From contig JAPFCU010000071.1 in NCBI GenBank assembly GCA_026169535.1, positions 1 to 64,000 of the forward strand: 64,000 bases of DNA, given 5' to 3'. Made by a program: the position numbers and the translations under genes. Shown piece after piece: positions 47,754 through 64,000 of the stretch. Source of the stretch: Blautia sp. Lineage in GTDB: Bacteria; Bacillota; Clostridia; Lachnospirales; Lachnospiraceae. Positions within the stretch are counted from its first letter, which is position 1. Every line of letters starts with the position of its first letter. Below the pieces are notes generated by a model. That model was not told the origin of the DNA, did no database searches, and worked only from the letters and a program-made list of their open reading frames with translations.

Positions 47754-48518
47754 TTACAGTTCCAGTACAGAATCCAGCAAAACTTTTGTATATTCTGATT
47801 GAGGAGCAGTCATAATGTCTTTCGTATTTCCCTGCTCCACACATTCTCCGTTAAGCATAACCATGATACGGTCACAAAAACTGCTTACCAGAGCAATATC
47901 ATGAGAGACAAATATAACGGAAATCTCCTGCTGCCTGACAAGTTCTTTTAACTGCCGGATAATTTTATCCTGCACGATTACATCCAGAGCACTTGTGATC
48001 TCATCACATAAAAGGATTTCCGGCTGGATCATAATCGCTCGGGCGATTGCTGCACGTTGACATTGTCCGCCGCTTAATTCTCGAGGATATCTTAAAAGCA
48101 GGTCTTTTTTTAGATCCACTTTTTCCATATAAGAATAAATAATTTTTTCCTGTTCTTTTTTACTTATAATCCCTGCCAGAAACCGAAGATTTTCCTCCAT
48201 GGATGTAATGATTTTTCTTCTGGGATCAAAGGATTCCAGTGGATTTTGAAAAATCATCTGCATAGTACTGTAACGTTTTCGTCTGCTCTTCAGATTTTTG
48301 CCTTCCGGAACGCTGCCATGGATCAGAATATCACCGGAGTCAGGTGTTTCTATTCCAGAAATCTGCTTTAAAAGTGTACTTTTGCCGCAGCCGCTCTCTC
48401 CAACAACTCCCATTATTTCTCCTTTTTCCAGAGAAAAGCTGACAGACTTTAATGCATGGATCTGCTGTTTGTTTTTTATGTAAGTATGTGATATGTTTCT
48501 GACTTCTAATACTGACAC
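47754..48518 (-). CDS. Peptide/nickel-type ABC transporter ATPase (second)
   Basis: A 254-residue ATP-binding subunit of the OppF/NikE type. Walker A is GVVGESGCGKSTLL, the signature is LSGGQCQRAAIARA and Walker B is ILLCDEITSALD. GTG 48518 is preferred because GGAGG lies eight bases upstream. An ATG at 48533 overlaps the stop of the preceding gene and would place that site inside the coding sequence; coupling makes it a possible alternative. Last gene of a five-gene import operon. Confidence 0.9.
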   Translation of the reverse strand: MSVLEVRNISHTYIKNKQQIHALKSVSFSLEKGEIMGVVGESGCGKSTLLKQISGIETPDSGDILIHGSVPEGKNLKSRRKRYSTMQMIFQNPLESFDPRRKIITSMEENLRFLAGIISKKEQEKIIYSYMEKVDLKKDLLLRYPRELSGGQCQRAAIARAIMIQPEILLCDEITSALDVIVQDKIIRQLKELVRQQEISVIFVSHDIALVSSFCDRIMVMLNGECVEQGNTKDIMTAPQSEYTKVLLDSVLEL

Positions 48519-48532
48519 AGGTAATTCCTCCA

Positions 48533-49321
48533 TTAGTATTCTCTTTTTAATTTTGGAACTGCTCGAAGCAGCCTCTGTGTATAGGGATGTTCTGAACTCG
48601 ACAGGAGCAGCTCTGTATTTTTACACTCTACAATTTTTCCCTGGAACATCACTGCAATACGGTCGCACATCCTGGCGGCAACTCCCATGTTATGTGTTAC
48701 AAGTATCATACTGTTTTTCATTTTTTTATGAAGCTCCATAAGCTCATTTACCACCTGTTTTTGGACGGTCACATCCAAAGCACTGGTAGGCTCGTCTGCG
48801 AGAAAAAGCTCCGGATTCATAAGAACAGCCATGGCAATGCCTACTCTTTGATTCATACCGCCGCTCAGCTCATATGGGCAGCTGTCTAAAATACGTTTTC
48901 CTTCAGGAAGATGTACCTTGGAAAAAATATCCAGTATCTTTTCTATAGATGCATCGCCTTCCCAAAAACCATGACTTTTTAAGGTTTCTTCAAATTGCTT
49001 TCGATAAGAACGGATGGGATGAAAGGATGAGGCAGAATTTTGGAATACCATACTTATTTTTGACCCATAAAGTTTTTTTCTTTCTGAAAGAGAAAGGCTC
49101 AGAAGCTCATGATCGTGAAAAAAAGCAGTTCCTCCATAAAGCTGGATCCCATATTCTTTTGGATTGATCAAAGCCTTTAAAAGGGTGCTTTTTCCGCATC
49201 CACTTTCCCCTACGATTCCAAAGATTTCATTCCTTTTTACAGAAAAAGATACCTCATCAACAACAATATTTTTTCCATAACCGGCTTTTAAATTTTTTAC
49301 ATCCAGTAATACTTCACTCAT
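48533..49321 (-). CDS. Peptide/nickel-type ABC transporter ATPase (first)
   Basis: A 262-residue OppD/NikD-type ATPase. Walker A is GIVGESGCGKSTLL, the signature is LSGGMNQRVGIAMA, with a Met where most have Gln-Gln. Walker B is LFLADEPTSALD. ATG 49321 follows GGAGGG and overlaps the preceding permease gene by eight bases. It lacks the C-terminal iron-sulfur cysteines of some Opp ATPases. Confidence 0.9.
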   Translation of the reverse strand: MSEVLLDVKNLKAGYGKNIVVDEVSFSVKRNEIFGIVGESGCGKSTLLKALINPKEYGIQLYGGTAFFHDHELLSLSLSERKKLYGSKISMVFQNSASSFHPIRSYRKQFEETLKSHGFWEGDASIEKILDIFSKVHLPEGKRILDSCPYELSGGMNQRVGIAMAVLMNPELFLADEPTSALDVTVQKQVVNELMELHKKMKNSMILVTHNMGVAARMCDRIAVMFQGKIVECKNTELLLSSSEHPYTQRLLRAVPKLKREY

Positions 49322-50132
49322 GACATCCCTCCACATCAAGTAAGTCTCGGGCCGCATCTCCCAAAAGATTAAATACAGAGACAGTAAGTACAATGGCTGC
49401 GCCAGGAAAGAGCACTGCCCAGGGAGTCAGCTGCAGGTATGCACGGGCTTCATTGATCATGCTTCCCCATTCTGCCATTGGAACCTGAACGCCTAAACCA
49501 AGAAATGAAAGGCCCGCAAAACCAATCATGGTTGTGCCTATTTTTGATGTGGCATTTACGATCAAAGGTCCTATAATATTAGGCAGGATATGAAAACTAA
49601 TAATATGCAGATCTGAGCAGCCTCCCATTTTTGCAGCACTGATAAAATACTCCTTTTTCCGGATAAGGACCTGGCTTTTGGCAAGTCGTGCATAAGTGGT
49701 CCAGCCTGCAAACCCCAGTGCGATCATAGCATTTACGATACTTCCTCCAAGCACACCTGCCACAGCAATGGCCAGAACCATCTCAGGAAGTGACATCAGG
49801 ATATCGGCCAGACGCATAACCAATGCATCCAATATCCCTTCATAATAGCCGCAGAGGACACCAAGAAGCGTTCCGACCAGAAAGGTGATCAGTACTAACA
49901 GGACGGCACAAAAAATACTGGTTTGAGCCCCCATAAGCACTCGACTTAAAATGCAGCGGCCGAATTTGTCGGTACCAAACGGGTATTTGGCACAGGGCGG
50001 AGCTTTTAAAACAAGAGGATTCGTTTCATAGGGATCGTTTGGCACCAGATAAGGAGCAAGCAGTGCGATAATCATCAATCCTGCTGCCAGACACAGGAAG
50101 AATAAAAACCTTTTTTTAACTTTATTTTTCAT
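49314..50132 (-). CDS. Peptide/nickel-type ABC transporter permease (OppC-like)
   Basis: A 272-residue inner-membrane permease with about six helices. The N-terminal region (PYLVPNDPYETNP, PFGTDKFGRCILSR) is diagnostic of the DppC/NikC group. The ATPase-coupling loop is near SAAKMGGCSDLHIISFHILPN. It starts one base after the OppB-like gene. Confidence 0.92.
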   Translation of the reverse strand: MKNKVKKRFLFFLCLAAGLMIIALLAPYLVPNDPYETNPLVLKAPPCAKYPFGTDKFGRCILSRVLMGAQTSIFCAVLLVLITFLVGTLLGVLCGYYEGILDALVMRLADILMSLPEMVLAIAVAGVLGGSIVNAMIALGFAGWTTYARLAKSQVLIRKKEYFISAAKMGGCSDLHIISFHILPNIIGPLIVNATSKIGTTMIGFAGLSFLGLGVQVPMAEWGSMINEARAYLQLTPWAVLFPGAAIVLTVSVFNLLGDAARDLLDVEGCHE

Positions 50133-50133
50133 A

Positions 50134-51069
50134 TCATATTTCCTTTTCTACTCTCGGGTCTAGATATCGGTAACTGATATCCGTCAACAAATTTATCAGG
50201 ACGTAAATTGTACCGAATATCAGGACAAAGCCTTGTACTACCGGGTAATCTCTGGCTGTAATAGAATCCATAACAAGCTTTCCCATACCAGGCCATCCGA
50301 ATATGGTTTCAATTACAACACTGCCGGCCATCATAGATCCTATAGACAGGCCAATCAGAGTGATAATAGAGACCATTGCACTTCGAAGAACATTTCGATA
50401 CAGAACAAAACGTTCATTTACACCTCTGGAGCGCATACCATGTACATATTCTTTTCCTAACTGCTCTAATACTTCTGCACGTATCTGTCGTGTAAAACGG
50501 CAGGCGTTTGGGATTGCCAGAGCCATCATGGGAAGGATCATTTCACGAAAACTGCCGCCTTTGGAAAGAACCGGAAACAGTTTTGTCTGAATGCACAGAA
50601 AATACATAAGCAAAACGGCCAGTAGAAAATTCGGGATACTGTTGCCGAAAAAACTGATAAAACGTATAAAATAATCTGTAAGACGATTTTGATGGACAGC
50701 ACTATAGATTCCAAGCGGGATCGAGACCAAAATGGAAACAAAAATACTTGACAAGGCAAGGAGAGCCGTGTTTTTCAGGGCTTTAAATATTTTTCCTGCA
50801 ACAGGAAGTCCATCTCGATAGCATATACCAAAATCACCATGCAGGACATCTGTCAGCCAGTCTGCATACTGTTGGATAAATGGACGGTCAAGTCCCATTT
50901 CTTTTTGCATGTCTTCAAGCATATCTTCTGTGATCGTCTGTTCCATGGAAACCAATTTTTTCTGTGCTGGATCTCCAGGCGAAATATAGAGAAGAAGAAA
51001 CGTGAGGATCGTCAGACCAAACAGGACCGGGACCAGCTGAAGAATCCTTTTTAGAATATAATTTTTCAT
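50134..51069 (-). CDS. Peptide/nickel-type ABC transporter permease (OppB-like)
   Basis: A 311-residue permease with the DppB/NikB pattern: LKRILQLVPVLFGLTILTFLLL at the start, GDPAQ, and the coupling loop EYVHGMRSRGVNERFVLYRNVLR. It lies about 100 bases after the binding-protein gene, separated by a strong hairpin. Confidence 0.92.
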   Translation of the reverse strand: MKNYILKRILQLVPVLFGLTILTFLLLYISPGDPAQKKLVSMEQTITEDMLEDMQKEMGLDRPFIQQYADWLTDVLHGDFGICYRDGLPVAGKIFKALKNTALLALSSIFVSILVSIPLGIYSAVHQNRLTDYFIRFISFFGNSIPNFLLAVLLMYFLCIQTKLFPVLSKGGSFREMILPMMALAIPNACRFTRQIRAEVLEQLGKEYVHGMRSRGVNERFVLYRNVLRSAMVSIITLIGLSIGSMMAGSVVIETIFGWPGMGKLVMDSITARDYPVVQGFVLIFGTIYVLINLLTDISYRYLDPRVEKEI

Positions 51070-51087
51070 AAATAGACTCCTATAAAA

Positions 51088-51153
51088 ATACTGTGATATA
51101 ATCAGATATAGTTCGGGTTTTTAATTCCCTGAATAAAGATTATATCACAGTAT
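51088..51153 (-). terminator. 16-bp perfect hairpin between binding-protein and permease genes
   Basis: ATACTGTGATATAATC (51088-51103) and GATTATATCACAGTAT (51138-51153) are perfect complements; on the reverse strand the stem is followed by TTTTTAT. It probably stabilises the binding-protein message or partly terminates, giving excess binding protein over permease. Confidence 0.75.
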
Positions 51154-51168
51154 CCTATTTTTTAATAT

Positions 51169-52668
51169 TTATTTTTTAATGGTGTCTTTTGATATACCAT
51201 AGAAATCAAATGGAGAATTTTCTGCATAATTGGAAACACCTTTTTTCAGAACAGTGATCTTATTAAACAGAGAAATAAATCCAAAAGAATTGTCATCTAT
51301 GATAAGCTGAATAATCTGATTAGCCAGCTCTGCACGCTTTGCAGGATCTGTTTCATGGGATAATTCTTCATATAATGTTTTACATTCTTCGTTATCAAAT
51401 CCACCGATCGTATACGCACCATTTACAAGCCCGTCAATAAAATACTGTGGATCTCCGGTCATATCTGCAATGCAGCAATATAAAGCAATGTCAAAATTTC
51501 CGGTTTTTATATAAGTGGCATCCGGATTCTCTTCGCAGACGAGCTCTGACTGAATACCGATATTTTTCAGCTGCTCCTGCATTAATGTAGCGATCACATC
51601 AAGAGAACGTGCTGCATAATATGAAATATTTAAGGTAAGTACATTGCCGTCTTTTTCATAAAATCCGTCTTTATTTAACGTATATCCATCTTCTTCGATC
51701 AGAGTTTTTGCCTGCTCCGTATCTACTTCCGGTGCTTCTGCTTCTCCATAGGAAGAGGATGAACTAAATGGTCCTGAGGTTGCGGAAACAGTTCCACCAA
51801 GATACGCTTCCATTGCCTTGGCATCCACAGTCAGGTTGATTGCTTTACGGATATTATCGCTCAGATTGTTTTTGTTGAGAAGATAAAACTGAAGACGTGT
51901 TGCAGGCCGTGTGACTACATCATATGTATCCGGCTCTGCTTCATACATTTCTTTCGCAGCAGCAGTAACGCCTGTATAAGCATCCAGCTCTCCATTTTGC
52001 ATTGCCATCAGTTTTGCATCATCATCCTGCATATAATAAAAGTCCACCTGATCCATCTGGACTTCTCCATCCCAGTACTGTTCATTTTTGGATACAGATA
52101 CAAGATTACCAGGCTCGAACTTTTCAATTACAAAGGGACCGGTAGCTACAAGTTCACTGGTAAATTCTGTTGTGGCATCCAGATCTGCAATGGCATATCC
52201 TGGAGTTGACAGTGTATTTAAAAGTGTAGGATATTCTGCATCACATATGATCTTGAAGGTTTTCTGATCAACGGTTTCGTAGGTGAAGTTTTCCATGAAT
52301 GATGCTTTTGGATTTACTTCTGCTGCACGTTGAAGATTGCGGATAACCATCTCCGGTGTCACAGGATTTCCATTTGAAAAAACAAGGTTATCCTTTAAGG
52401 TGATTGTCCAGATATTTCCATCCATTTCTCCTTTTTCTGCAAGACAAGGCTGAATAGAAAAATCGTCTGCAATTTTAAATAAATTTTCTGTCAGACCATA
52501 AATACCATTATACCAGGAACTGCTTCCATCGTGCGGATCAATGGTATCGTAAGAAAAATTTGTTGCAATTGTCATTGTTTTATCAGATTCCGCTGCAAAT
52601 GTAGGTACTGTACATACAGAAGATGCAAATAGAGCACCGGTTAATAAAGTTGCTATTATTTTTTTCAT
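51169..52668 (-). CDS. ABC transporter substrate-binding protein (family 5)
   Basis: A 499-residue extracytoplasmic solute-binding protein of the peptide/nickel family (SBP_bac_5). A signal peptide is clear (MKKIIATLLTGALFASSVC). The Cys is preceded by Ser-Ser-Val, a poor lipobox, and an AxA-like site (PTFAAES) follows. Domain motifs include TIDPHDGSSSW and GNPVTPEMVIRNLQRA. Whether the ligand is a peptide, nickel complex or other compound cannot be told. It heads the importer operon. Confidence 0.92.
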   Translation of the reverse strand: MKKIIATLLTGALFASSVCTVPTFAAESDKTMTIATNFSYDTIDPHDGSSSWYNGIYGLTENLFKIADDFSIQPCLAEKGEMDGNIWTITLKDNLVFSNGNPVTPEMVIRNLQRAAEVNPKASFMENFTYETVDQKTFKIICDAEYPTLLNTLSTPGYAIADLDATTEFTSELVATGPFVIEKFEPGNLVSVSKNEQYWDGEVQMDQVDFYYMQDDDAKLMAMQNGELDAYTGVTAAAKEMYEAEPDTYDVVTRPATRLQFYLLNKNNLSDNIRKAINLTVDAKAMEAYLGGTVSATSGPFSSSSSYGEAEAPEVDTEQAKTLIEEDGYTLNKDGFYEKDGNVLTLNISYYAARSLDVIATLMQEQLKNIGIQSELVCEENPDATYIKTGNFDIALYCCIADMTGDPQYFIDGLVNGAYTIGGFDNEECKTLYEELSHETDPAKRAELANQIIQLIIDDNSFGFISLFNKITVLKKGVSNYAENSPFDFYGISKDTIKK

Positions 52669-53827: not shown

Positions 53828-54140
53828 TACCTTACCTCGTATACAATAATTTATTATTGTTAACTATTTTGAAGCGTATATGTTGTGGGACTATAAAAAC
53901 GTCTTATAAATTTTTGTGAAATTTGTTATTTTTATATCATTTGTTTACATATTTATACTTTTGTTATATCATATTCTTATCAAAAAATAAACCTTATGAT
54001 CCGGATCTTCCCTGTTTTCCCCGGGAAAACATGAAGCTTCTCCTGGAGCACAAAATCCCCAGATATCTTCCTATGTCAGGAGATACCTATCCAATCACTC
54101 CTGACATTATCTGTGAACGGTCCTATGATAACAAAAATAA
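53828..54140. other. Gene-poor stretch with two small palindromes
   Basis: No supported gene. ACAATAAT/ATTATTGT (53843-53860) lies in the leader of the acetyltransferase gene. GTTTTCCC-C-GGGAAAAC (54014-54030) is a 17-base near-perfect palindrome of operator size. An open frame from 53923 to 54147 has no ribosome site and does not read as a known protein; a shorter frame from ATG 54031 (38 codons) starts right after the second palindrome and is also unsupported. Confidence 0.4.
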
Positions 54141-54182
54141 AAAATAAGGACAGAGCCCCAAAAAGAACTCTGTCCTTATTTT
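54141..54182. terminator. Bidirectional terminator after the Xaa-Pro peptidase gene
   Basis: A perfect 15-base stem AAAATAAGGACAGAG (54141-54155) with CTCTGTCCTTATTTT (54168-54182), symmetrical with A/T ends, so active on both strands. Confidence 0.9.
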
Positions 54183-54209
54183 CACATCAAAATTTGTTGA
54201 TTGAAATTA

Positions 54210-55988
54210 TCAGATCGCTCTTGTGTATTCTTTCAGCCAGTTCTTTTCTTCCTCTGTAAGGTAAGGAGAAATCTTCTCATAAACCTCTGCATGGTAGGAA
54301 TTCAGAAGACCTTTTTCATAAGTATCCAGAAGCTCCGGATTAATGGCGTCCAGATCAAAAGGTACCATGGTCAGATTTTCAAAGCACATAAACTGACCGA
54401 ATGCCGTCTTTTCGGCCTTTTTGCACACGATCAGGTTTTCGTGCCGGATACCGAACTCGTCTTCTACATAATATCCCGGCTCATTGGATGTGATCATGCC
54501 CTCTTCCAGAACTGCGGAGGAGGATTTCCAGCGGAAACTGTTTGGTCCTTCATGTACATTCAGAAGATATCCCACTCCATGACCGGTTCCATGGTTATAA
54601 TCCTCTCCCAGTCTCCATAAAGGTTCTCTGGCAATATAATCCAGATTCTGTCCGCAGCAGCCGTAACGGAATTTTGCATCGCTTAAGCGAAGATGCCCCT
54701 TCAGCACAAGGGTAAAATATTTCCGTTCTTTTTCTGTCAGTTCTCCAAGGGCAATGGTACGGGTAATATCGGTACTTCCTTCCAGATAATGTCCGCCGGT
54801 GTCGCAGAGAGCCAGCCCCTTTGGTTCCAGAGGAATGTCTGTCTCCGGTGACGGACTGTAATGGCAGATGGCCGCGTGGCCGCCATAAGAAACAATAGGA
54901 TCAAAGCTGTTGTCCAGGAAATTTTCCTGTTCCTTCCGAAGCTGGAAAAGATGCTCTGCTGCACTGAGCTCTGTGATCTCCATTTTTCCCACGTTCTGTT
55001 TCAGCCAGTAAATAAATTTTGTCACCGCCACACCGTCTTTGATATGAGCAATGCGCTCATTCTCTACTTCTGTGTGATTTTTGATGGCTTTTGGAAGAAG
55101 GGTAAGGTTTTCTTCATCCAGGATTTTTACTTCAGCCGGAATGCTGTTTACCAGCCGGCTGTTGGCGCCTGCTCTGGAAAGGATCACGGTTTTACCGGCC
55201 GGAATGGTATGTACACAGGTATAAATATCATTATACGGTTTCAGAGTGACGCCGTCTTTTTTCAGATTTTCAAGAACTTCCTGTCCAAATGCTTTTTCAT
55301 TGGCGAAAAGAAAAACTTCCTCTTCTGTCATCATCAGATAAGAAAGGACTACCGGACAGCAGTGGATATCATTGCCTCTGAGGTTCAGAAGCCATGCAAT
55401 ATCATCCAGGGAAGTAAGGACAAAAACATCTGCCTGTTTTTCATTCATCTTCCGGCGGATCCGTGCACATTTTTCTGCTCTGGACTCTCCCGCCCATTTT
55501 ACATCCAGTTCCATAACCGGTTCACAGGAAAGAGCCGGACGTTCCGTCCAGATTTCTCCGATCAGATCTTCCTCTACAGAAAAACGGATTTTTTTGTCGG
55601 AAAGCAGTTCTTTCAGCTCTTCTGCTTCTGCTGCGCTTACGGTTCTTCCGTCAAATCCCAGACACATTCCTTCAGTGAGCTTTTCTTTCAGAAACTCATG
55701 GATGGTAGGCACTTCCGGCTCACCCATTTTAAAAAGCTCCACCGTAGTTCCTTTCAGTTGCTGCGCAGCCTGGATAAAATATCGTCCGTCAGTCCAAAGA
55801 CCCGCCATATCCATAGTGATCACTGCTGTTCCGGCGGAGCCGGTAAAGCCGGTGATATATTTTCTGCATTTAAAATAATCTCCTACATACTCTGACGCGT
55901 GGAAATCATCTGTTGGTACCAGATATGCGTCCACACCTTTTTCTTTCATCAGAGCACGAAGGGCGTTAAGCCGTTCTGTTACTGTCAT
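54210..55988 (-). CDS. Xaa-Pro aminopeptidase (M24B)
   Basis: Removes N-terminal residues before proline. The 592 residues form the long aminopeptidase P type with two creatinase-like N-terminal domains and a pita-bread domain. Metal ligands lie in LCDTGGHYLEGSTDITRT (both Asp), GTGHGVGYLLNVHEGP (His), TSNEPGYY (Glu) and HENL (Glu). ATG 55988 is used; a TTG two codons upstream is possible. No signal peptide, so cytoplasmic. It is the terminal gene of a run of peptidase genes. Confidence 0.95.
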   Translation of the reverse strand: MTVTERLNALRALMKEKGVDAYLVPTDDFHASEYVGDYFKCRKYITGFTGSAGTAVITMDMAGLWTDGRYFIQAAQQLKGTTVELFKMGEPEVPTIHEFLKEKLTEGMCLGFDGRTVSAAEAEELKELLSDKKIRFSVEEDLIGEIWTERPALSCEPVMELDVKWAGESRAEKCARIRRKMNEKQADVFVLTSLDDIAWLLNLRGNDIHCCPVVLSYLMMTEEEVFLFANEKAFGQEVLENLKKDGVTLKPYNDIYTCVHTIPAGKTVILSRAGANSRLVNSIPAEVKILDEENLTLLPKAIKNHTEVENERIAHIKDGVAVTKFIYWLKQNVGKMEITELSAAEHLFQLRKEQENFLDNSFDPIVSYGGHAAICHYSPSPETDIPLEPKGLALCDTGGHYLEGSTDITRTIALGELTEKERKYFTLVLKGHLRLSDAKFRYGCCGQNLDYIAREPLWRLGEDYNHGTGHGVGYLLNVHEGPNSFRWKSSSAVLEEGMITSNEPGYYVEDEFGIRHENLIVCKKAEKTAFGQFMCFENLTMVPFDLDAINPELLDTYEKGLLNSYHAEVYEKISPYLTEEEKNWLKEYTRAI

Positions 55989-56088
55989 AGCCAAAACCTC
56001 TCCTTTGTATTGATTCTGCGTTAATTCAGCAGAATTCTCGTATTCATTGTACTGGTAAGTGTATCATAAAATCCGGGCATTTTAAAGC

Positions 56089-57345
56089 CTATGCCCCAAA
56101 ATATTCGTCCAGCTGTTTTTTGAATTCTTCCGGAATTTCCTGTGGGAACGGCATACTGTCGATTGCTGCAAGACTTTCTGCAATGTGGCAGAGAAGCTGT
56201 GCGCTCCTTTCCAGAGACCAGGCAGAGAGAAGCTCTACCGTGTCGTAATGGGTATGCATGCCAAAACCGTCCCTGTTTAAGGTCATTGCCGGAATTCCTT
56301 TCCAGGCAAAAGTATTGGAATCACTTCCCCAGATCTGGTTTTTGGTAGTCATTCCAATGCCAGTTTCCCGTGCAAGATAAGTCAGCATGGAACAGATAGA
56401 AGAATCTCCTGTTACGCCGATTACATTTCCTCCAACCAGCTGTCCTGCAAGGTCTACATTCATATTAAACCGATGTGCACCCAGCTCTTTTTCATGAACT
56501 TTGATATAATCCCGGCTTCCCAAAAGACCTTTTTCTTCTGCCCCGAACCAGATAAATTCCAGTGTTCTGCGGGGCTGATGTTCTTTGAAATAGCGGCAGA
56601 TTTCCATAATAATAGCGGCGCCTGCCATATTGTCATAGGCTCCCGGACCTTGAGGAACCGAATCGTAGTGAGCGGTAAGGGTCAGAATCTCCTCTGCCCG
56701 GTCTGTTCCGGGGATTCTTGCCACGATATTTCCGGAAGTACGGCTGACCTCTTTCTGAAGTAAGGTAAGACGTGCGCGGGAAGCTCCTTTTGTAACCATT
56801 TCCACAGCGTCCTGGTAATGGATCCCAACACCCTGGATCAGCTCTCTTTCATTCAGGGAATCGAAAAGCTTCTGAGGGATTCCGGCTGCTTTTGGCATCC
56901 GGTCCTCTCCTTCATCGACAGGAGTACCGGTGATACTGACAAATCCTGCTGCACCTGCTTTTAACAGCTTCAGGTACATATCCTTACGGACGATCTCATT
57001 TACCATAACAATCTTTCCCCTTACATGGGAAAGGCTGATCTCGTCTCCGTTTTCCGCATAGACAAAATCTGCTTCGATTCCCTCTTCAGGTGTATTTCCG
57101 CACCGGATGTAGCCTTCCGCCTGATATTCTTTATAATAAGGCTCTGTTACGGCAAATACGGCCTTTCTGATCTCCCAGGTATAAAAAGGAAATTCTTCCA
57201 GACGGCTGTCCATTCCAAAGGAGGAAAGTTCCTCCCGGATAAGGACAGCTGCTTTTTTTTCTGCATCTGTTCCTGCTTCCCGGATAAAATTAAATTTTGA
57301 TACGAAATCCATCTGACGCTGTCCGCTGATGTTTCTTTTATTCAT
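56089..57345 (-). CDS. M28 family zinc peptidase
   Basis: A 418-residue M28 (aminopeptidase Y/S type) protein with a PA-type insert (VRGKIVMVNEIVRKDMYLKL, near 130-150). Zinc ligands are in LTAHYDSVPQGPGAYDNMAG (His, Asp), WFGAEEKGLLGS (Glu-Glu) and a late MHTHYDT. No signal peptide was seen, so it probably digests imported peptides. Its own promoter lies just after the M20 gene. Confidence 0.9.
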   Translation of the reverse strand: MNKRNISGQRQMDFVSKFNFIREAGTDAEKKAAVLIREELSSFGMDSRLEEFPFYTWEIRKAVFAVTEPYYKEYQAEGYIRCGNTPEEGIEADFVYAENGDEISLSHVRGKIVMVNEIVRKDMYLKLLKAGAAGFVSITGTPVDEGEDRMPKAAGIPQKLFDSLNERELIQGVGIHYQDAVEMVTKGASRARLTLLQKEVSRTSGNIVARIPGTDRAEEILTLTAHYDSVPQGPGAYDNMAGAAIIMEICRYFKEHQPRRTLEFIWFGAEEKGLLGSRDYIKVHEKELGAHRFNMNVDLAGQLVGGNVIGVTGDSSICSMLTYLARETGIGMTTKNQIWGSDSNTFAWKGIPAMTLNRDGFGMHTHYDTVELLSAWSLERSAQLLCHIAESLAAIDSMPFPQEIPEEFKKQLDEYFGA

Positions 57346-57402
57346 AATTCTCTCTCCATTTTGTTTAAAATATCAATGAAATTACATGGGATTCCTGTAA
57401 AA

Positions 57403-57431
57403 AATATACTAAATTATGATCGCATTGTCAA
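57403..57431 (-). promoter_or_regulatory. Sigma-A promoter for the M28 peptidase gene
   Basis: On the reverse strand, consensus TTGACA (57426-57431), a 17-base spacer and TATATT (57403-57408). Confidence 0.75.
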
Positions 57432-57451
57432 TTATTTTGTATTGATCTGTC

Positions 57452-58807
57452 TTATTCCTTCCAGTTTTCCATATGACGGATAATTCGTTTATAGAAATCA
57501 ACTGCCTTTGGAAGTGTATTGATATTAATATTTTCATTAAGTCCATGGATACTCTGATACTGTTGCTCATTGATCTCCAGAGGGGCAAAACGAATGCTGT
57601 TTTTGCAGACAGGGGTATAAAATTTTGCGTCGGTTCCTCCTGTCATGGCATACGGGGCTACGATCACACCCGGGAACATTTTTCTGACCACATGCTCCAC
57701 CAGACGGAAAGGTTTTTCTTTGTAGTCTACTACCGGACAGGGTTCGTGGATCAGGATCGGTTCTACCTCAATTTCATATTTTTTTGCAATTTTTGATACA
57801 AGAGCCAGACTTTCCTTTGGTCCCTGATGATGGATAAAACGCATATTTCCTGTTACATAAGCCTCCTGAGGAACGACGTTTAATCCATCTGCTCCCTTTG
57901 CCATGGTGAAATTCAGGGTTGTAGAGATCATGGCAGCGCCCAGAGGGTTGACCTTTGGAAGAAGTTTTTCCAGAAGGGGCTCCAGCTGGCGCTCATACTT
58001 CATCACTGTGCCCAGAGGCCCTTCGGTACAGGGAGCCATTCTCCGGAACATTTCCGCTACAGTAGGATTCATTTTTGCAGTAAAGGGATTATGATTTTCA
58101 ATATCCATCATAAAGGCTGCCAGACGTGTAAGGGGAGTCTGCTTCTGAGGTACGCTGGCATGTCCGCCATTTCCTCTGGCAGTAAAACGGATATCTCCAT
58201 AGCCTTTTTCCAGGCAGCCTACCATGGCAAAACGTCCTTTCACCCCTTTCATAGGCTCTTCTTTGATCATTCCGCCTTCATCCATCAGGAAACGCAGCTG
58301 TACCTCATGATCCTGAAGCCATTTTACGGTAAGAGGTGCGCCTTCTCCTCCAATCTCCTCCGTACAGCTGCTGGCAAGATATACGTCGCATTCCGGTACA
58401 TATCCTTTGCCGATCAGTTCCTCTGCTGCCTGAAGAAAACAGAAAAGACTGCCCTTGGTATCCACGGTTCCTCTTCCCCAGACAGCTCCGTCGATGATCT
58501 CCCCGCCAAAAGGATCGTGTTCCCACTGTCCGTTTGCCTCCACAACATCCTGATGGCTCATAAAAAGAATGGGTTTTCCATTCCCTTTTCCATTCCATTT
58601 GAACAGAAGGCTGCCATTAAATTCATACTTTTCGCAGGTTTTGTGTATATTTGGAAAAAGCTGCTCCAGAACCTCATGGAACCGGTAAAACTTGCTGAGA
58701 TCCTGATCAAAGCTGCTGGAAATTGTCTCACAGCGGATCATTTTTCCAAGTTTTTCTCCATAAAATATTTCTCTTTCATTTGATCCTGTTTTTTCTTTTA
58801 TACTCAT
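57452..58807 (-). CDS. M20/M25/M40 family metallohydrolase
   Basis: A 451-residue M20 protein. Metal-binding motifs are FMSHQDVVEA (His-x-Asp), WGRGTVDTKGS (bridging Asp), SCTEEIGGEG (catalytic Glu-Glu) and a C-terminal MTGGTDAKF. It resembles carboxypeptidase PM20D1-like or acylase-type members. M20 proteins also include N-carbamoyl-amino-acid hydrolases, which is relevant given the neighbouring racemase and DUF917 genes. It lies 17 bases after a membrane-protein gene and is probably its partner. Confidence 0.9.
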   Translation of the reverse strand: MSIKEKTGSNEREIFYGEKLGKMIRCETISSSFDQDLSKFYRFHEVLEQLFPNIHKTCEKYEFNGSLLFKWNGKGNGKPILFMSHQDVVEANGQWEHDPFGGEIIDGAVWGRGTVDTKGSLFCFLQAAEELIGKGYVPECDVYLASSCTEEIGGEGAPLTVKWLQDHEVQLRFLMDEGGMIKEEPMKGVKGRFAMVGCLEKGYGDIRFTARGNGGHASVPQKQTPLTRLAAFMMDIENHNPFTAKMNPTVAEMFRRMAPCTEGPLGTVMKYERQLEPLLEKLLPKVNPLGAAMISTTLNFTMAKGADGLNVVPQEAYVTGNMRFIHHQGPKESLALVSKIAKKYEIEVEPILIHEPCPVVDYKEKPFRLVEHVVRKMFPGVIVAPYAMTGGTDAKFYTPVCKNSIRFAPLEINEQQYQSIHGLNENININTLPKAVDFYKRIIRHMENWKE

Positions 58808-58824
58808 TTTGTCATCCTCCTTGA

Positions 58825-59496
58825 TTAAAGCTTATTCTTTTTCCATAAAACATATCCGATCACAAGAGCCATTCCGCCTGCCGGGATCAAAAGAATACTG
58901 GTCTGTGAAATAGCCCCTGGCACAAGTACGCAGAGAAGAGTCATGGAAATCAGAGGGATAGCTGTGATCTTCATGCTTTTTCGGAAATATTTCAGTCCAA
59001 GAGCTCCAAAAAGTGCCGGAACCACAGTATCAAAGGCCGGAGTCAGCACCGGGTTTTCCAGTACCGGAGTCAGCGGAACCAGAAGAAGGACACCTGCAAA
59101 GATCACCAGCATGGTCACAATGGAGCTGGATGCCACGCTTAACGTAGAAATAATCTCGTTTTCTACGGTGCCAACCTCTGTTCTGGCAATATCCCTGGCA
59201 TTCATGGCACAGGGGATTTTCAGGTTTGTTACGTTTCCTGTAAGAAAGGTCAGATAGCTTCCGCCATTTCCCAGCATAGGTGCGTATACAAGAAATTCTA
59301 CAATCCCCACAGGAATATAGACCATTCCTACCTTGATAAAACCATTTAAAAAGCTCTTCAGATCCGGAAGGGCTCCATATATGCCGCCAAGCAGAAAAGG
59401 AACTGCCAGAAGCAGGACTGCGGCTGCGATCAGCATTATCCTTCCCAGGCGATGCTGCTGTCTGTTGAATTCTTCCAGAAATTTCTCTTTTTCCAT
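58825..59496 (-). CDS. Membrane protein paired with the DUF5058 protein
   Basis: Function unknown. The 223 residues contain about five to six hydrophobic segments, with a charged first 20 residues (EKEKFLEEFNRQQHRLGR) on the cytoplasmic side. A loop near 70-105 (APMLGNGGSYLTFLTGNVTN) is polar and Gly-rich. Immediately downstream of the DUF5058 gene (12 bases), the pair looks like a two-component membrane transporter or channel. That is inference. Confidence 0.75.
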   Translation of the reverse strand: MEKEKFLEEFNRQQHRLGRIMLIAAAVLLLAVPFLLGGIYGALPDLKSFLNGFIKVGMVYIPVGIVEFLVYAPMLGNGGSYLTFLTGNVTNLKIPCAMNARDIARTEVGTVENEIISTLSVASSSIVTMLVIFAGVLLLVPLTPVLENPVLTPAFDTVVPALFGALGLKYFRKSMKITAIPLISMTLLCVLVPGAISQTSILLIPAGGMALVIGYVLWKKNKL

Positions 59497-59508
59497 TTAC
59501 TTTTCCTC

Positions 59509-60243
59509 CTAAAGACTGATCAGAACGGCTGCGGTCATTCCCACGATCATACTGACTGCGACGCTGAAATTTTCCAGCCATTCCATTTTTTTCTTTACGA
59601 TCAGATATTCAAAAACTGCCATTGTCAGTGCGGAAACACCTGCCACCATAAGAGGCAGATGATTTTTGAACGCAGTCCATGTACCTACATAAGAACCGAT
59701 ATACGCGCTGCAAAGGCCGATAAACATAGCAATAGTCGCATAAGCTCCAAAACCTGGACGGTTGCCTTCTGCCTTTTTCTCTTTTTTCTGAAACCTGGTC
59801 AGATATTTTTTCAGGCCAAAGATACAGCAGGTGATACCACTTAAAATCCCCGCTGTCATTACAAGGGCAATGGTGGTAAATGCTGCTATGGACATTTCAC
59901 TTACCTTCAGTCCGGAAAGTCCCATACTGGTAGCAGCTATCTCCGCCACATTCAGTTCATACTGAAGAGCCCCTACAACGGAAAGTCTCAGCCAGGACAG
60001 CGGCACTCCAAGGCTCCCGCTGAGTGCGATCACACCCAGAAGTATGCTGACGCCTGGAAGAATGGAAAAAGTAGCGCTGGACATGATCGCTCTTCGCATC
60101 ACTTTTTTGTCCATTCCAATAGCAATCCCCGCCCGGTAGCTTTTTACCAGAAACCACACACACATGATCAGGATAAACAATAAAACTCCGCCCACGATCA
60201 GATAAAAGGGCAGGCTGTTTACCTGTTTCAGATACTCGTTCAT
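59509..60243 (-). CDS. DUF5058 family membrane protein
   Basis: A 244-residue integral membrane protein that matches the DUF5058 pattern. The N-terminal helix is followed by YRAGIAIGMDKKVMRRAIMSSATFSILPGVSILLG (in pieces) and GVPLSWLRLSVVGALQYELN; about six helices in all. DUF5058 has no proven function, but it occurs with peptidases and amidohydrolases, which suggests transport of their substrates. ATG 60243 follows GGGAGG; longer frames lack a site. First gene of the three-gene unit with its membrane partner and the M20 hydrolase. Confidence 0.85.
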   Translation of the reverse strand: MNEYLKQVNSLPFYLIVGGVLLFILIMCVWFLVKSYRAGIAIGMDKKVMRRAIMSSATFSILPGVSILLGVIALSGSLGVPLSWLRLSVVGALQYELNVAEIAATSMGLSGLKVSEMSIAAFTTIALVMTAGILSGITCCIFGLKKYLTRFQKKEKKAEGNRPGFGAYATIAMFIGLCSAYIGSYVGTWTAFKNHLPLMVAGVSALTMAVFEYLIVKKKMEWLENFSVAVSMIVGMTAAVLISL

Positions 60244-60309
60244 CTCTTTTCCTCCCTGTTTTGTATCATTTAGTTTTCGTTGTACTAGTTTACCACATCT
60301 CAGCGCAAA

Positions 60310-60357
60310 AAAACAGAGTCTGTCGTCCATGATGCTCAGGATAACAGACTCTGTTTT
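60310..60357. terminator. Terminator after the racemase gene
   Basis: AAAACAGAGTCTGT (60310-60323) and ACAGACTCTGTTTT (60344-60357) are perfect complements; seven T follow on the reverse strand. Confidence 0.9.
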
Positions 60358-60384
60358 ACTGTTCGCAGCAACGATGTTGTGCTG

Positions 60385-61035
60385 TTATTTTTTCAAATAC
60401 TCAAAATACGCAAATAGACCTTCTGCCATTACCGGATCGATTACCGGAAGACCGGTAGCTTCCTCCAGCTCCTTTGCGATTCCGATGGTTGCCATCCCGG
60501 TACATGCAAGTGCAAGAACCTGTGCTCCCTGTTCTTTTAATTTACATGCCATGTCTACTGCGCTCTGTCGGCCTTCCGGCGTCATAAGATCAAGAGTGCT
60601 GTCAACTCCATCCGGTTTTCCCAGGATCATCTGATCCGGGATCATTCGTACATATGCTCTCGGGGCATAGTCGGTGATTCCAAGAACTCCGATTTTTTCG
60701 CCATATTTGAGAGCAAGAGCTACAGTGGTCTCTCCTCCTCCTGTAACTGGTATACCAGGAAGAGCTTCTCGTATCTCCTCCACGCCGGGATCGTCTGCAC
60801 AGCTGACAATGATCATATCCGCATCTTTAAAACTTTTGGCAGTTGCCACGATCTTTGGTACTGCAATTTCTCCAAGTTCCGGAGTATGGATTCCTTCATA
60901 CTGATCCGGAATACATTTTGTTTCGATCTGCAGCTGAGGAAAATAAGATTTCAGCTGCCTTTCATGTGCAAGCAGTACATCTTCATTTTCTGTAGTCAGT
61001 ACTCTGATCAGACCGATCTTAAATTTCTTGTCCAA
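60385..61035 (-). CDS. Asp/Glu/hydantoin racemase superfamily protein
   Basis: A 216-residue protein with the two-cysteine racemase layout: IIVSCADDPG (first Cys near residue 82) and LALACTGMAT (second, near 177). This points to a hydantoin- or aspartate-racemase-type cofactor-independent reaction. The exact substrate is unknown. TTG 61035 is chosen since AGAGAGG lies about eight bases before it; a GTG at 61044 overlaps that site. It is the last gene of the DUF917-DUF1177-AroM transcript. Confidence 0.85.
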   Translation of the reverse strand: MDKKFKIGLIRVLTTENEDVLLAHERQLKSYFPQLQIETKCIPDQYEGIHTPELGEIAVPKIVATAKSFKDADMIIVSCADDPGVEEIREALPGIPVTGGGETTVALALKYGEKIGVLGITDYAPRAYVRMIPDQMILGKPDGVDSTLDLMTPEGRQSAVDMACKLKEQGAQVLALACTGMATIGIAKELEEATGLPVIDPVMAEGLFAYFEYLKK

Positions 61036-61050
61036 AAAAGCCACCTCTCT

Positions 61051-61995
61051 TTATACGAGGAATACCCCATCCTCGATTACTTTTACATCGTCCAGATACA
61101 AGGTAGGGCGGAGGATAATGCCGTCCATATGGCACTCTGCCTTGTTTACTCCGCCAAAGGAAGTATTGGTTCCAAATGCGATGTGCACTGTTCCATATAC
61201 TTTTTCATCTTCCAGGATAATTCCGTTTAATACAGCCGCTTCATTTGTTCCGATACCCAGCTCACAGAGTGTTCCGTTTGTTTCATTTTTCAGGAGAACA
61301 TCCAGATTTTCGCTTTTTTCTCCTGTTACAGAACGGAGCTTTCCGCCGGAGATTACCATATGAAGAGGGCTGTCCAGCTTTCCGATACCTACCATGGAAC
61401 CGTCTATGATCATTTCCCCCTCAGAACCATCCTCCAGAGGTGCAATATAAGCCTCTCCGGAAGGAAGATTTCCGCATTTTCCCGGTTCCCGATATACTCC
61501 CGGACTTGGAACACCGTCTCTTCCATTTATATTGATGGTCAGAACATGCCCATCTTTTTCAATTTTTGCCACAGAAGCCTTTGAGAGCATTTCTGTAACC
61601 ACAGCCGTCAGTTTTTCTACTTTGGAATAATCTGCTGTCATTGCTCCCTGAGAAAACATTTCCTCTGTGATACCGGGCATGGTGGCCACCCTTGTCCCGG
61701 CTTTGGCTGCCTCTATTCTGGCATTGGTATGAGTCAGAGACTGAGCAGTAGGCGCGATCACCACATCTGCGCTTTTCATAGCTGCTGCCACTGCCTTTGG
61801 AGGCTCCTGTCCGCTGAGTTCTCTCTCATTCATTACCATAAGAAGCCTTTCGCAGCCCAGATTTCCTGCCGCCTCATAAATTGCTTCTCCAATTTCTTTT
61901 CTGGTATTATCGGTTACGATAAGTACCTCTTCTCCCTTTTTTACTGCTAGGCAGGAGGAAAGAACCCCTTCCGCTGTCTTTACTAACTGATTCAT
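61051..61995 (-). CDS. Short M29-like aminopeptidase
   Basis: A 314-residue protein related to thermophilic aminopeptidases (M29). The metal-site pattern of that family can be traced: Glu in NLPSGEAYIAP, Glu in CELGIGTN, His in GTVHIAFGTN, and His and Asp in KAECHMDGIIL. Classical M29 enzymes are about 400 residues, so this form has a reduced N-terminal domain. In this context it may act on a small modified amino acid or dipeptide rather than on peptides at large. Confidence 0.82.
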   Translation of the reverse strand: MNQLVKTAEGVLSSCLAVKKGEEVLIVTDNTRKEIGEAIYEAAGNLGCERLLMVMNERELSGQEPPKAVAAAMKSADVVIAPTAQSLTHTNARIEAAKAGTRVATMPGITEEMFSQGAMTADYSKVEKLTAVVTEMLSKASVAKIEKDGHVLTININGRDGVPSPGVYREPGKCGNLPSGEAYIAPLEDGSEGEMIIDGSMVGIGKLDSPLHMVISGGKLRSVTGEKSENLDVLLKNETNGTLCELGIGTNEAAVLNGIILEDEKVYGTVHIAFGTNTSFGGVNKAECHMDGIILRPTLYLDDVKVIEDGVFLV

Positions 61996-62023
61996 TTTCT
62001 TTGCTCCTTTTTACGCATATCTC

Positions 62024-62698
62024 TTACAGATCCGTAAGTTCAGAAACTACACGGGCAAGAAGTGTTCTTGGGAGAACTACTTTTTTTCCGGTTTTTTCTG
62101 CAAACATACGCTTCATTTCCTGTGTATACCCAATACAGTCCAGGACGATAAGATCACCATCCATGTTTTTCACCTGTTCTGCGGCCTCCTCCAGAGCATC
62201 CCATTCTCCATAGGGAGATGCTGCAACTGCTTTTACCTGATCCACATATTTTTTCCATTTTTCTTCACACTGTGCAGTCTGTAAAGGTGATGGCGTCATA
62301 CAGATGATGCTGGATTTTTTTGTCATCAGAGGCACCAGTCTGTTCAGAAGCTCGCAGGGATAGATCAATGGAATATTTTTTGCAGAAAGACTTTCCGGAA
62401 AACTTCCCGTACAGAACATCATTACTAAGGCACATCCCTCTTCTTCCATTTTTGTAATGGCATTCTGAAGCCTGGGAAGAATATGACGTTCTGCAAAGGT
62501 TACAGAGCTTCCGTCTGTAAGCCTTGACACCAGAACATAATCTTCCGGTCCCGGTGCAAAGGTTTCGATTTCTTCTCTAGTGAGGCCGTCCAGCCCTCCT
62601 GCCTGCACCAGCTCCAGAGAATCGTCAAAAAGTCCCATAATATCTTTCGTGACATCCACTCTGGGAGACTGTCCGATGGTAATTGCGCCGATTTTCAT
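62024..62698 (-). CDS. aroM: AroM family protein
   Basis: A 224-residue AroM protein: KIGAITIGQSPRVDV at the start, AGGLDGLT, MMFCTGSFP and VLDCIGYTQEMK. The paired cysteine-containing motifs (FCTG and LDCIGY) and the overall fold resemble the Asp/Glu racemase superfamily. The E. coli aroM function is unknown. It starts 12 bases after DUF1177. In this cluster it may be a second racemase- or isomerase-like enzyme; that is inference. Confidence 0.87.
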   Translation of the reverse strand: MKIGAITIGQSPRVDVTKDIMGLFDDSLELVQAGGLDGLTREEIETFAPGPEDYVLVSRLTDGSSVTFAERHILPRLQNAITKMEEEGCALVMMFCTGSFPESLSAKNIPLIYPCELLNRLVPLMTKKSSIICMTPSPLQTAQCEEKWKKYVDQVKAVAASPYGEWDALEEAAEQVKNMDGDLIVLDCIGYTQEMKRMFAEKTGKKVVLPRTLLARVVSELTDL

Positions 62699-62710
62699 AG
62701 GAACTCCTCC

Positions 62711-63649
62711 TTATTCGTTTCCGAGAGTCTGGAAATGTTTCAGATCTCCATAAAGTTTAATCAGTCTTGCATATTCTTCTTCATCATAGAATTTACACTG
62801 GCCTTTGCCAAATGCCTTTGCAACTTCAAGCATAAAGCGTGCTGCCTCTTCTACATCTGAAGCATGGGTAGCTCCTGTAGCACATCCCGGTACCATGGTT
62901 TCTGCTGTAATCGCCACACCTACTACCGGTGCATTGGTTGCGGTGCATGGCTGAAGAACACTGTTGATATGATGTACATCATTTCCATATGGTGTGATAT
63001 CCTGCAGAGCCAGCGGGAACACATAAGGAAGTTTTCCGGTTGTGATCTGCATAAGATCCAGAAGATCCTCAGAGGTTCTTAAAATATAGCCTTCTTTTAC
63101 AGTTGGAGAAATAGCAAATCCTCTTGTGTTGATCACACGGTTGCCTTTGGTTGTATCAACAGACAGGATGGCATCCAGTTCAGGAGAAACCTCTTCTCTG
63201 TTTACCTGAGACATTTCTACCGGAGATCCCATAAACGGAACAGGATCATGAGGTGCAGTCGGTGCATCCGGGCAGATATGTGTGGAAATAAATACGTCAC
63301 CTTCCAGGAAATCTCCTTTGTTCTGCATATCAAGAAGCTTTGCTGCAAGAGCAACCGCACAGAGAGCGCCGTCGCCGTCAGAGACAAAGCCGATTCGTTC
63401 CGGACGTGCACCGATACCGCCAAGACGTCCCAGAAGACCAATGGTAGGAGCGTCTCCGCCGTTCATTTTTCCTCTGGTTCCCGGAATACGCACTTTCAGC
63501 ATATCAGTACTTCCTTTTGGTCCAACAAGTTCATAAACTTCAATATTTGCATCCGGTTTGATACCAAGAAGATATTCCTTTACTTTTTCTCCGGTTACAT
63601 AGGTGCTGTCAAGCACTTCATAAGCATCAATAATGTGTTTCATTAACAT
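62711..63649 (-). CDS. DUF1177 family protein
   Basis: A 312-residue DUF1177 protein with no established role. Visible features include RIGFVSDGDGALCAVALAAKLL near 82-103 and STHICPDAPTAPHDPVPFMGSP near 121-142, both rich in Asp and His. They recall the spaced metal ligands of M20/M28-type hydrolases; this resemblance is weak. ATG 63649 sits eight bases after AGGAGG. The family is repeatedly found beside AroM and DUF917. Confidence 0.85.
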   Translation of the reverse strand: MLMKHIIDAYEVLDSTYVTGEKVKEYLLGIKPDANIEVYELVGPKGSTDMLKVRIPGTRGKMNGGDAPTIGLLGRLGGIGARPERIGFVSDGDGALCAVALAAKLLDMQNKGDFLEGDVFISTHICPDAPTAPHDPVPFMGSPVEMSQVNREEVSPELDAILSVDTTKGNRVINTRGFAISPTVKEGYILRTSEDLLDLMQITTGKLPYVFPLALQDITPYGNDVHHINSVLQPCTATNAPVVGVAITAETMVPGCATGATHASDVEEAARFMLEVAKAFGKGQCKFYDEEEYARLIKLYGDLKHFQTLGNE

Positions 63650-63663
63650 AAGTATGACCTCCT

Positions 63664-64000
63664 TTATTTATTAAGATAGCTGATCAGTTCTTTTTTTATT
63701 ACGTCTTCAGTGGCTTTCAGAAGTTCCGGTGCATACATTGCAGGGGAAAGCTTCAGATTCTTTTTCTCCGTAGCTATTACGTAAACCTCAAGACCTTCTT
63801 CCATCATGGCAGTTGTCACCGGCTCGCCGGTCTCGGCATTGATCGTCATGATCAGATCCGGGAAGGTTGCCAGACGGACACCGTCTTTTTCCGCTGTTGC
63901 GTATTCATTCCAGAAAGTAAGCTCACATCCGTCTACTGTTGCATAGCCCACATCAAAACCACCTGTGGTCTCAATGGAGAAATTTTCTACTTTTCCTTTT
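63664..64000 (-). CDS. DUF917 family protein, C-terminal part (partial)
   Basis: The last 112 residues or so of a gene that continues beyond the window. The sequence TTGGFDVGYATVDG, then ATFPDLIMTINAETGEPVTT, matches the C-terminal beta domain of DUF917. That family is now linked to S-methyl thiohydantoin desulfurase, an enzyme of ergothioneine breakdown, though most members act on unknown compounds. A GTG at 63949-63951 is internal; the frame is open to the window edge. DUF1177 follows after about 14 bases. Confidence 0.8.
   Translation of the reverse strand, partial: KGKVENFSIETTGGFDVGYATVDGCELTFWNEYATAEKDGVRLATFPDLIMTINAETGEPVTTAMMEEGLEVYVIATEKKNLKLSPAMYAPELLKATEDVIKKELISYLNK

Follow-up and report, generated by a model that had tools for sequence, protein, structure and literature searches.

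A conserved DUF1177-containing operon in Blautia with a possible role in the catabolism of peptide-like compounds bearing a cyclic amide ring

Gene clusters that encode cyclodipeptide oxidase (CDO)-like proteins without a cyclodipeptide synthase were described in 2024 as being enriched in members of PF01177, PF06032 (DUF917), and PF07302 (AroM), together with OPT transporters, dipeptide ATP-binding cassette (ABC) transporters, and peptidases (Andreas and Giessen 2024, PMC11055893). In the portions of that paper used here, Blautia, Clostridium, and Thermococcus are named among the carriers, hydantoin- or allantoin-type substrates, purine metabolism, or secondary metabolites are proposed, and experiments are called for. 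We analyzed a related operon in a 64,000-nucleotide stretch of Blautia sp. (the window; positions 1 to 64,000 of contig JAPFCU010000071.1, assembly GCA_026169535.1), which is part of a contig of 144,781 bases from a genome that is 89.75% complete. This operon, referred to here as unit 1, extends from a PucR regulator gene to a racemase gene and is followed by unit 2, which consists of genes for DUF5058, its membrane partner, and an M20 peptidase. Unit 1 shares racemase, DUF917, AroM, transporter, and peptidase families with the CDO-like clusters but differs in that the window genome has no match to CDO-B, and in that the portions of the 2024 paper used here make no mention of DUF1177 or M29. 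The broad type of unit 1 was noticed in that study (PMC11055893); what we add is the DUF1177 core, the predicted fold of DUF1177, an exchange of OPT for ABC transporters, and the finding that the two units are separate. We conclude that unit 1 is a real, conserved, uncharacterized operon, and we estimate a probability of about one-half that its products import and break down peptide-like molecules containing a cyclic amide, which would be a five-membered ring of the hydantoin type or a 2,5-diketopiperazine (cyclic dipeptide).

The genes of both units named in an earlier note on this DNA are all present on the minus strand, and gene calls and Pfam matches agree with its description of two adjacent same-strand units (Table 1). 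Read on that strand, unit 1 has the order PucR, OPT, DUF917, DUF1177, AroM, M29-type protein, and racemase, with 6 to 28 bases between neighboring genes in the stretch from OPT through the racemase and 216 bases between PucR and OPT. The PucR regulator probably controls the unit. The DUF917 gene is truncated by the window edge at 64000, and the whole gene carries both S-Me-THD domains; the OPT-type transporter that the same note had suggested looking for beyond this edge is indeed encoded there. The strong terminator that it placed near 60310 was also recovered, as a hairpin plus T run with a folding energy of -29.2 kcal/mol (z -5.88; 0 of 200 shuffles equal). It was not listed by a pattern scan, probably because the scan accepts loops of 3 to 8 only.

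Table 1. Features of unit 1, unit 2, and the genes downstream (window positions, except where contig positions are stated; L137 and L138 are loci of close relatives)
Feature	Position	Strand	Basis or remark
PucR regulator	contig 66683-67897	-	Pfam PucR 89 bits
OPT transporter	contig 64781-66466	-	Pfam OPT 77 bits
DUF917 (S-Me-THD-like)	contig 63664-64755; C-terminal part in window 63664..64000	-	S-Me-THD_N 81.3 and S-Me-THD_C 98.6 bits, cut-off 27
DUF1177, predicted M28/M20/M42 aminopeptidase fold	62711..63649	-	Pfam 465 bits
AroM, second two-cysteine racemase-like protein	62024..62698	-	PF07302 283 bits
M29-type metallohydrolase (M29/NicX superfamily)	61051..61995	-	PF02073 37.1 bits, cut-off 27
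Asp/Glu/hydantoin racemase-family protein	60385..61044	-	PF01177 90.5 bits
Intrinsic terminator closing unit 1	60301..60365	-	folding energy versus shuffles
DUF5058 membrane protein	59509..60243	-	PF16481 224 bits
Membrane partner of DUF5058	58825..59496	-	no Pfam family above cut-off; adjoins DUF5058 in 16/16 fetched loci
M20 peptidase, PRK08262-like	57452..58807	-	Pfam M20 92 bits; PRK08262 249 bits, below that cut-off
Stretch absent from L137 (all of unit 2)	57446..60287	-	DNA comparison
M28 peptidase, downstream	56089..57345	-	PF04389 120 bits
Promoter-like site of M28 gene	57431-57403	-	11/12 match
M24 (Xaa-Pro aminopeptidase-type) gene, downstream	54210..55994	-	PF00557 156 bits; retained in L137 and L138

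DUF1177 was detected in 46 of 398 genomes of a phylum sample and in 13 of 150 genomes of the family, the window genome being in both. We mapped 134 DUF1177 loci, comprising 42 from the phylum sample (window included; G145, G215, G254, and G374 were omitted because of small or split contigs or a match at a contig end), 12 others from the family, and 80 named loci that were the most similar to the window DUF1177 among the matches listed. At least three duplicates are included (L054/L204, L080/L206, and L085/L197), and G460 holds three further partial DUF1177 matches outside the map. A gene was counted as a neighbor if it stood no more than eight genes away on either strand and its profile score exceeded 100. 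By this rule, AroM neighbored DUF1177 in 27 of the phylum loci, the racemase and PucR in 24 each, DUF917 and M29 in 19 each, and OPT in 16; the corresponding counts for the named loci, again among the matches listed, were AroM 51, M29 38, DUF917 36, OPT 34, PucR 33, and racemase 31. Over all 134 loci, AroM directly follows DUF1177 in 63 and DUF917 directly precedes it in 49, and the exact order OPT-DUF917-DUF1177-AroM-M29-racemase appears in 11. DUF1177 identity to the window protein is 52 to 88% across 39 aligned loci, and a Thermococcus locus (L196) encodes the racemase, DUF917, DUF1177, AroM, M29, and OPT proteins consecutively. The nearest DUF1177 proteins among the named loci fetched are those of L137 (a Lachnospiraceae bin, 100% identical) and L138 (Blautia caecimuris DSM 29492, 95%), and all 11 of the nearest named relatives among the matches listed (L137 to L147) carry DUF1177, AroM, M29, and racemase genes consecutively.

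Some loci show variations. DUF1177 extends across two frames in L098:9728-10671 (G013), where the copy may be broken or misassembled, and DUF917 is a 127-amino-acid stub in L054:10497-10880, where the module is otherwise retained and stands beside two NicX-type paralogues. A conserved protein of ∼281 amino acids occurs in the unit-1 runs of 16 loci (e.g., L048:8452-9297, minus strand), often between DUF1177 and AroM, and related genes are also found in the DUF917 loci L248 and L250. Two members of this group, one of them from L250, gave no Pfam match.

The transporters and peptidases that accompany DUF1177 bear on the substrate. OPT neighbors DUF1177 in 52 of the 134 loci and an oligopeptide-type ABC permease does so in 30, but the two never occur together; four proteins tested for the ABC label carried oligopeptide-transporter domains or family-5 binding-protein and permease domains. 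M20 proteins are also encoded in 19 of the 30 ABC-permease loci, and dipeptidases that exceed their model cut-offs (PepV, PepT-like, and aa-His dipeptidase) occur in the unit-1 runs of relatives. Two unrelated kinds of peptide transporter, several types of dipeptidase, and a DUF917 of the desulfurase subgroup (see below) together suggest that the substrate is peptide-like and contains a cyclic amide. The same transporters and peptidases would also suit an operon for linear peptides with D-, beta-, or isoaspartyl residues, in which OPT or ABC transporters would import, racemases convert, and M29, M20, and M24 enzymes cut, with no ring involved. Membership of the racemase in the Asp/Glu superfamily and the absence of DUF917 from the module of one near relative (L142) are in keeping with this idea, which we regard as possible but unlikely. 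It leaves unexplained the DUF917 of the desulfurase subgroup, the CDO pair of some relatives, and locus L246, where a cytosine/allantoin-type permease accompanies the racemase, the CDO pair, M29, and DUF917. The L246 gene set suggests that the enzymes act on a ring and not on a linear peptide.

The DUF917 protein of unit 1 belongs to the S-Me-THD-like superfamily, both Pfam domains being over their cut-offs, and shares its two-domain family with the thiohydantoin desulfurase (NF058529) and the S-methyl thiohydantoin desulfurase (NF058532), the only NCBIfam models that match it. It differs from both in its scores, its separate grouping, and its DUF1177 context. It scored 281.3 bits with NF058529 (280.9 in a second scoring) against a cut-off of 440 and 275.8 bits with NF058532 against a cut-off of 450, and is thus below both; on this basis, it is not an equivalog of either enzyme. 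DUF917 occurs in 64 of the 398 genomes, and the NF058529 scores fall into two sets: full-length proteins at 250 to 346 bits in 23 genomes, and the remainder at ≤105 bits, except for three fragments at 90 to 138. No protein in the 398 genomes scored over 440 bits. DUF1177 is present in 21 of the 23 high-set genomes, which carry the unit-1 type (Fisher p 3e-20, far above chance; here and below, per-genome p values are uncorrected for kinship), and is adjacent in 19, and the figure for genomes with only the other DUF917 type was 1 of 39 in this presence and adjacency comparison. A tree of 88 DUF917 proteins groups 55 of the 58 that come from DUF1177 loci in a clade without any of the 30 others (support 0.81, rising to 1.0 when two other proteins are included). 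The scores place the unit-1 DUF917 in the subgroup nearest the thiohydantoin desulfurases, at 281 bits versus ≤105 for the other kind, so that the relationship proposed in the earlier note holds as kinship.

The desulfurase is part of the ergothioneine pathway of Burkholderia sp. HME13, and the earlier note had raised ergothioneine as a possible source of the substrate. Specific catabolism of ergothioneine or a thiohydantoin could draw on the DUF917 score and on an M20 protein at L060:6767-8008 (minus strand) that is close to ErtE (468 bits, cut-off 520) and whose run also includes a CDO pair. Both missed desulfurase cut-offs speak against it, as does the nature of the OPT and ABC proteins as peptide transporters. 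In addition, PF00221, which we take to cover histidine ammonia-lyase and, by kinship, the ergothionase superfamily, has no match in the 89.75% complete window genome and matches in 5 of 14 control genomes, on which ground we rejected an ergothioneine route for this genome. Ergothionase has been stated to be restricted to few bacterial genera (2026, PMC13405746, in the portion used here). Such specific catabolism is therefore very improbable.

Unit 1 encodes two proteins that appear to belong to the two-cysteine racemases. All 22 racemase sequences examined retain C82 and C181, and a near full-length profile match to PDB 2eq5 (2.3e-96) aligns both cysteines. The protein belongs, on its sequence, to the Asp/Glu/hydantoin racemase family and might act on hydantoins; 2eq5, although hydantoin racemase-like, is itself named "hypothetical." C96 and C188 of AroM are likewise invariant (26 of 26), and hhalign relates AroM to the racemase group with a probability of 96.7% (E 4.2e-10) and with both cysteines paired, identifying it by profile comparison as a two-cysteine racemase relative. 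A resemblance of predicted AroM structures to racemases was already stated by Andreas and Giessen (PMC11055893). We found no published role for AroM in the literature searched.

The M29-type protein carries E181, E245, H271, H289, and D291, matching the Glu/Glu/His/His/Asp series that we take to be the M29 ligand set. It is related to both NicX (PDB 7cn3, 8.9e-24) and PepS (1.7e-9), with which it shares the superfamily and the final His-x-Asp pair, and at 314 amino acids it is shorter than PepS (413 amino acids). NicX presumably has His at its first iron-ligand position; NicX-type paralogues have His where the window protein has E245, so its ligands look peptidase-like. A NicX-type dioxygenase assignment was accordingly discarded (His occupies this position in 7 of 25 aligned proteins).

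The predicted structure of DUF1177 has the fold of the M28/M20/M42 (MH) aminopeptidases, as found by re-alignment of the top 1000 Foldseek matches. Its sequence has no significant similarity to these zinc peptidases: hhalign against PepT-like, M28, and M20 sets gave 0.1, 0.3, and 3.6%, and no relatives were found in PDB (best E 0.2) or PHROG. D91 and D165 are invariant, and R75, P127, and a variable residue at 128 occupy positions read by eye as ligands, a register that hhalign does not support. By this reading, the usual Glu pair and first His of the zinc peptidases are not apparent. No published role for DUF1177 was found in the literature searched.

CDO-A (nitroreductase-type) and CDO-B (DUF6092) proteins occur together in 9 of the 134 DUF1177 loci, a linkage of DUF1177 to CDO-like A/B proteins that is new here. 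The CDO-A group matches AlbA (9exv, 7.3e-37; 8uc3, 1.7e-36) and the CDO-B group matches AlbB (9exv, 2.4e-8; 8uc3, 1.8e-6). In all nine loci, the first CDO gene starts 11 to 56 bases after a same-strand gene, which is the racemase in five (a 93-amino-acid fragment in L084), AroM in one, OPT in one, and unlabeled in two, and in six loci the pair lies in an unbroken run with DUF1177. Among the 11 nearest named relatives, L140, L141, and L147 carry the pair right behind the racemase, the position held by unit 2 in the window. DUF917 is present in 8 of the 10 genomes of the phylum sample with DUF6092 (p 1e-5). CDO-A and CDO-B are fused in one protein at L140:13276-14148 and L249:5294-6268; such fusions were reported for some CDO systems in 2024 (PMC11055893). 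Characterized CDOs act in cyclodipeptide biosynthesis, and Andreas and Giessen, in the portions of their paper used here, name biosynthesis among the options for such clusters (PMC11055893). We consider the production of a modified cyclic dipeptide or of a hydantoin natural product improbable for unit 1, where import-type transporters and peptidases point to catabolism and where the window genome shows no match to CDO-B.

Catabolism of an imported compound with a cyclic amide ring thus remains our preferred reading, and the uptake and breakdown of a ring- or N-modified amino acid compound proposed in the earlier note is plausible. We infer each reaction, the step order, the regulation, and the substrate class from the gene content, order, conservation, and families, the predicted DUF1177 fold, and the cysteine pairs, which are observed. 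OPT would import the compound. The racemase and AroM, whose cysteine pairs fit two-base proton transfer, would convert the ring alpha-carbon to a single configuration; DUF917 would then hydrate the ring, as the thiohydantoin desulfurases suggest by analogy, and DUF1177, with its M28-type fold, and the M29-type metallohydrolase would degrade the opened product to amino acids. The CDO-like flavoprotein pair of some relatives would add an oxidation step. An N-carbamoyl-hydrolase-type M20 in the unit-1 run of L060 (TIGR01879, 458 bits versus a cut-off of 204) fits a hydantoin. The lack of an N-carbamoyl hydrolase over cut-off in the window genome fits a diketopiperazine better, or DUF1177 performing that step. 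These data provide no choice between the two rings.

Several observations weigh against this reading. Linkage is loose within the window's own family: among the 12 other family loci, DUF1177 neighbors AroM in 7, PucR in 3, DUF917, M29, and OPT in 2 each, and the racemase in 1. Across the 134 loci, 27 have no listed partner and 6 more have PucR alone, and L142, a near relative, has a module without DUF917. DUF917 itself is below both desulfurase cut-offs. The top fold match of the DUF1177 model is the transferrin receptor, a non-enzyme, and DUF1177 may be inactive as a peptidase, the positions read by eye as its catalytic Glu pair being P127 and a variable residue. The CDO-A group also matches ordinary nitroreductases (from 2.9e-30, 4dn2), and the CDO pair lies outside the DUF1177 run in three of the nine loci, 1.9 to 3.1 kb away and in two cases on the opposite strand. 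DUF1177 is present in only 3 of the 10 DUF6092 genomes (p 0.10), and DUF6092 has no match in the 89.75% complete window genome, with 14 control genomes also silent for a model that matches 10 of 398 genomes. No N-carbamoyl hydrolase over cut-off was found in the window genome, and its only HyuA-type match is on another contig, so the hydantoin route appears incomplete. We found no published assay of any unit-1 protein.

The earlier note had read both units as one system and had pointed to the N-carbamoyl-amino-acid hydrolases among M20 proteins, and neither link withstood comparison with other genomes and models. The best models for the M20 protein are of the PRK08262 type, and it does not reach the TIGR01879 cut-off of 204, so it was rejected as an N-carbamoyl hydrolase; the only TIGR01879 match in the window genome, at 25.7 bits, is in the M28 gene. 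DUF5058 neighbors DUF1177 in 2 of the 134 loci, those of the window and L138. At E 0.001, 18 of 196 genomes of the class matched DUF5058, 15 of them over cut-off, and in the 16 loci fetched (3 sub-threshold matches were left out), an M20 gene stands behind the DUF5058 pair in 14, four of them being weak matches of another M20 type (28 to 34 bits). None of these 16 loci contains DUF1177, AroM, DUF917, racemase, M29, or OPT, and a PucR-like gene is present in two. In DNA comparison, L137 is 93% identical to the window over 60288-64000 and 91% over 54209-57445, with no match between. That L137 lacks exactly 57446-60287 indicates that unit 2 entered or left this locus as one piece, directly behind the terminator, which itself sits in DNA retained by L137. 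Unit 2 is therefore a separate transporter-like pair plus peptidase, outside the unit-1 pathway. A single Blautia pathway of both units together with the M28 and M24 genes could appeal to their adjacency on one strand and to the same order in Blautia caecimuris (L138), but it is already largely refuted and we give it very little credence: L137 lacks exactly unit 2, which occurs only in L138 among the 11 nearest named relatives L137 to L147 (among the matches listed; some contigs are short), a terminator divides the units, and DUF5058 triads stand alone in other genomes.

The DUF5058 reading frame was listed from 60330, within the terminator hairpin; the likely start, judged from the sequence, is the ATG at 60243 behind AGGGAGG. 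Comparison of DUF5058 with its partner by hhalign gave no relation, and the literature searched contained nothing on DUF5058. Behind the M24 gene is a very strong hairpin of 20 pairs plus a T run (window 54140-54183). Beyond M24, on the same strand, lies a five-gene oligopeptide-type ABC transporter (window 47754-52668; one binding protein, two permeases, and two ATPases; Pfam confirms four of these genes).

Cyclic dipeptides are abundant natural compounds, and little is known about how they are broken down. In a 2013 study, none of 15 peptidases was active on diketopiperazines, and in the portion used here the hydrolyzing enzymes were stated to be unclear (PMC3852281). We offer, as a doubtful extension, the idea that unit 1 might be a widespread bacterial and archaeal operon that degrades cyclic dipeptides, or else imidazolone rings borne on peptides (such as methylglyoxal-modified arginine peptides), in which DUF1177 would be a new M28-fold amidohydrolase whose metal site is altered, and both racemases would handle mixed ring stereochemistry. 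If the proposed catabolic role of unit 1 is true, diketopiperazine breakdown could be tested directly using the seven unit-1 genes, PucR through racemase, also carried by a cultured relative, Blautia caecimuris, and DUF1177 and AroM would gain their first role.

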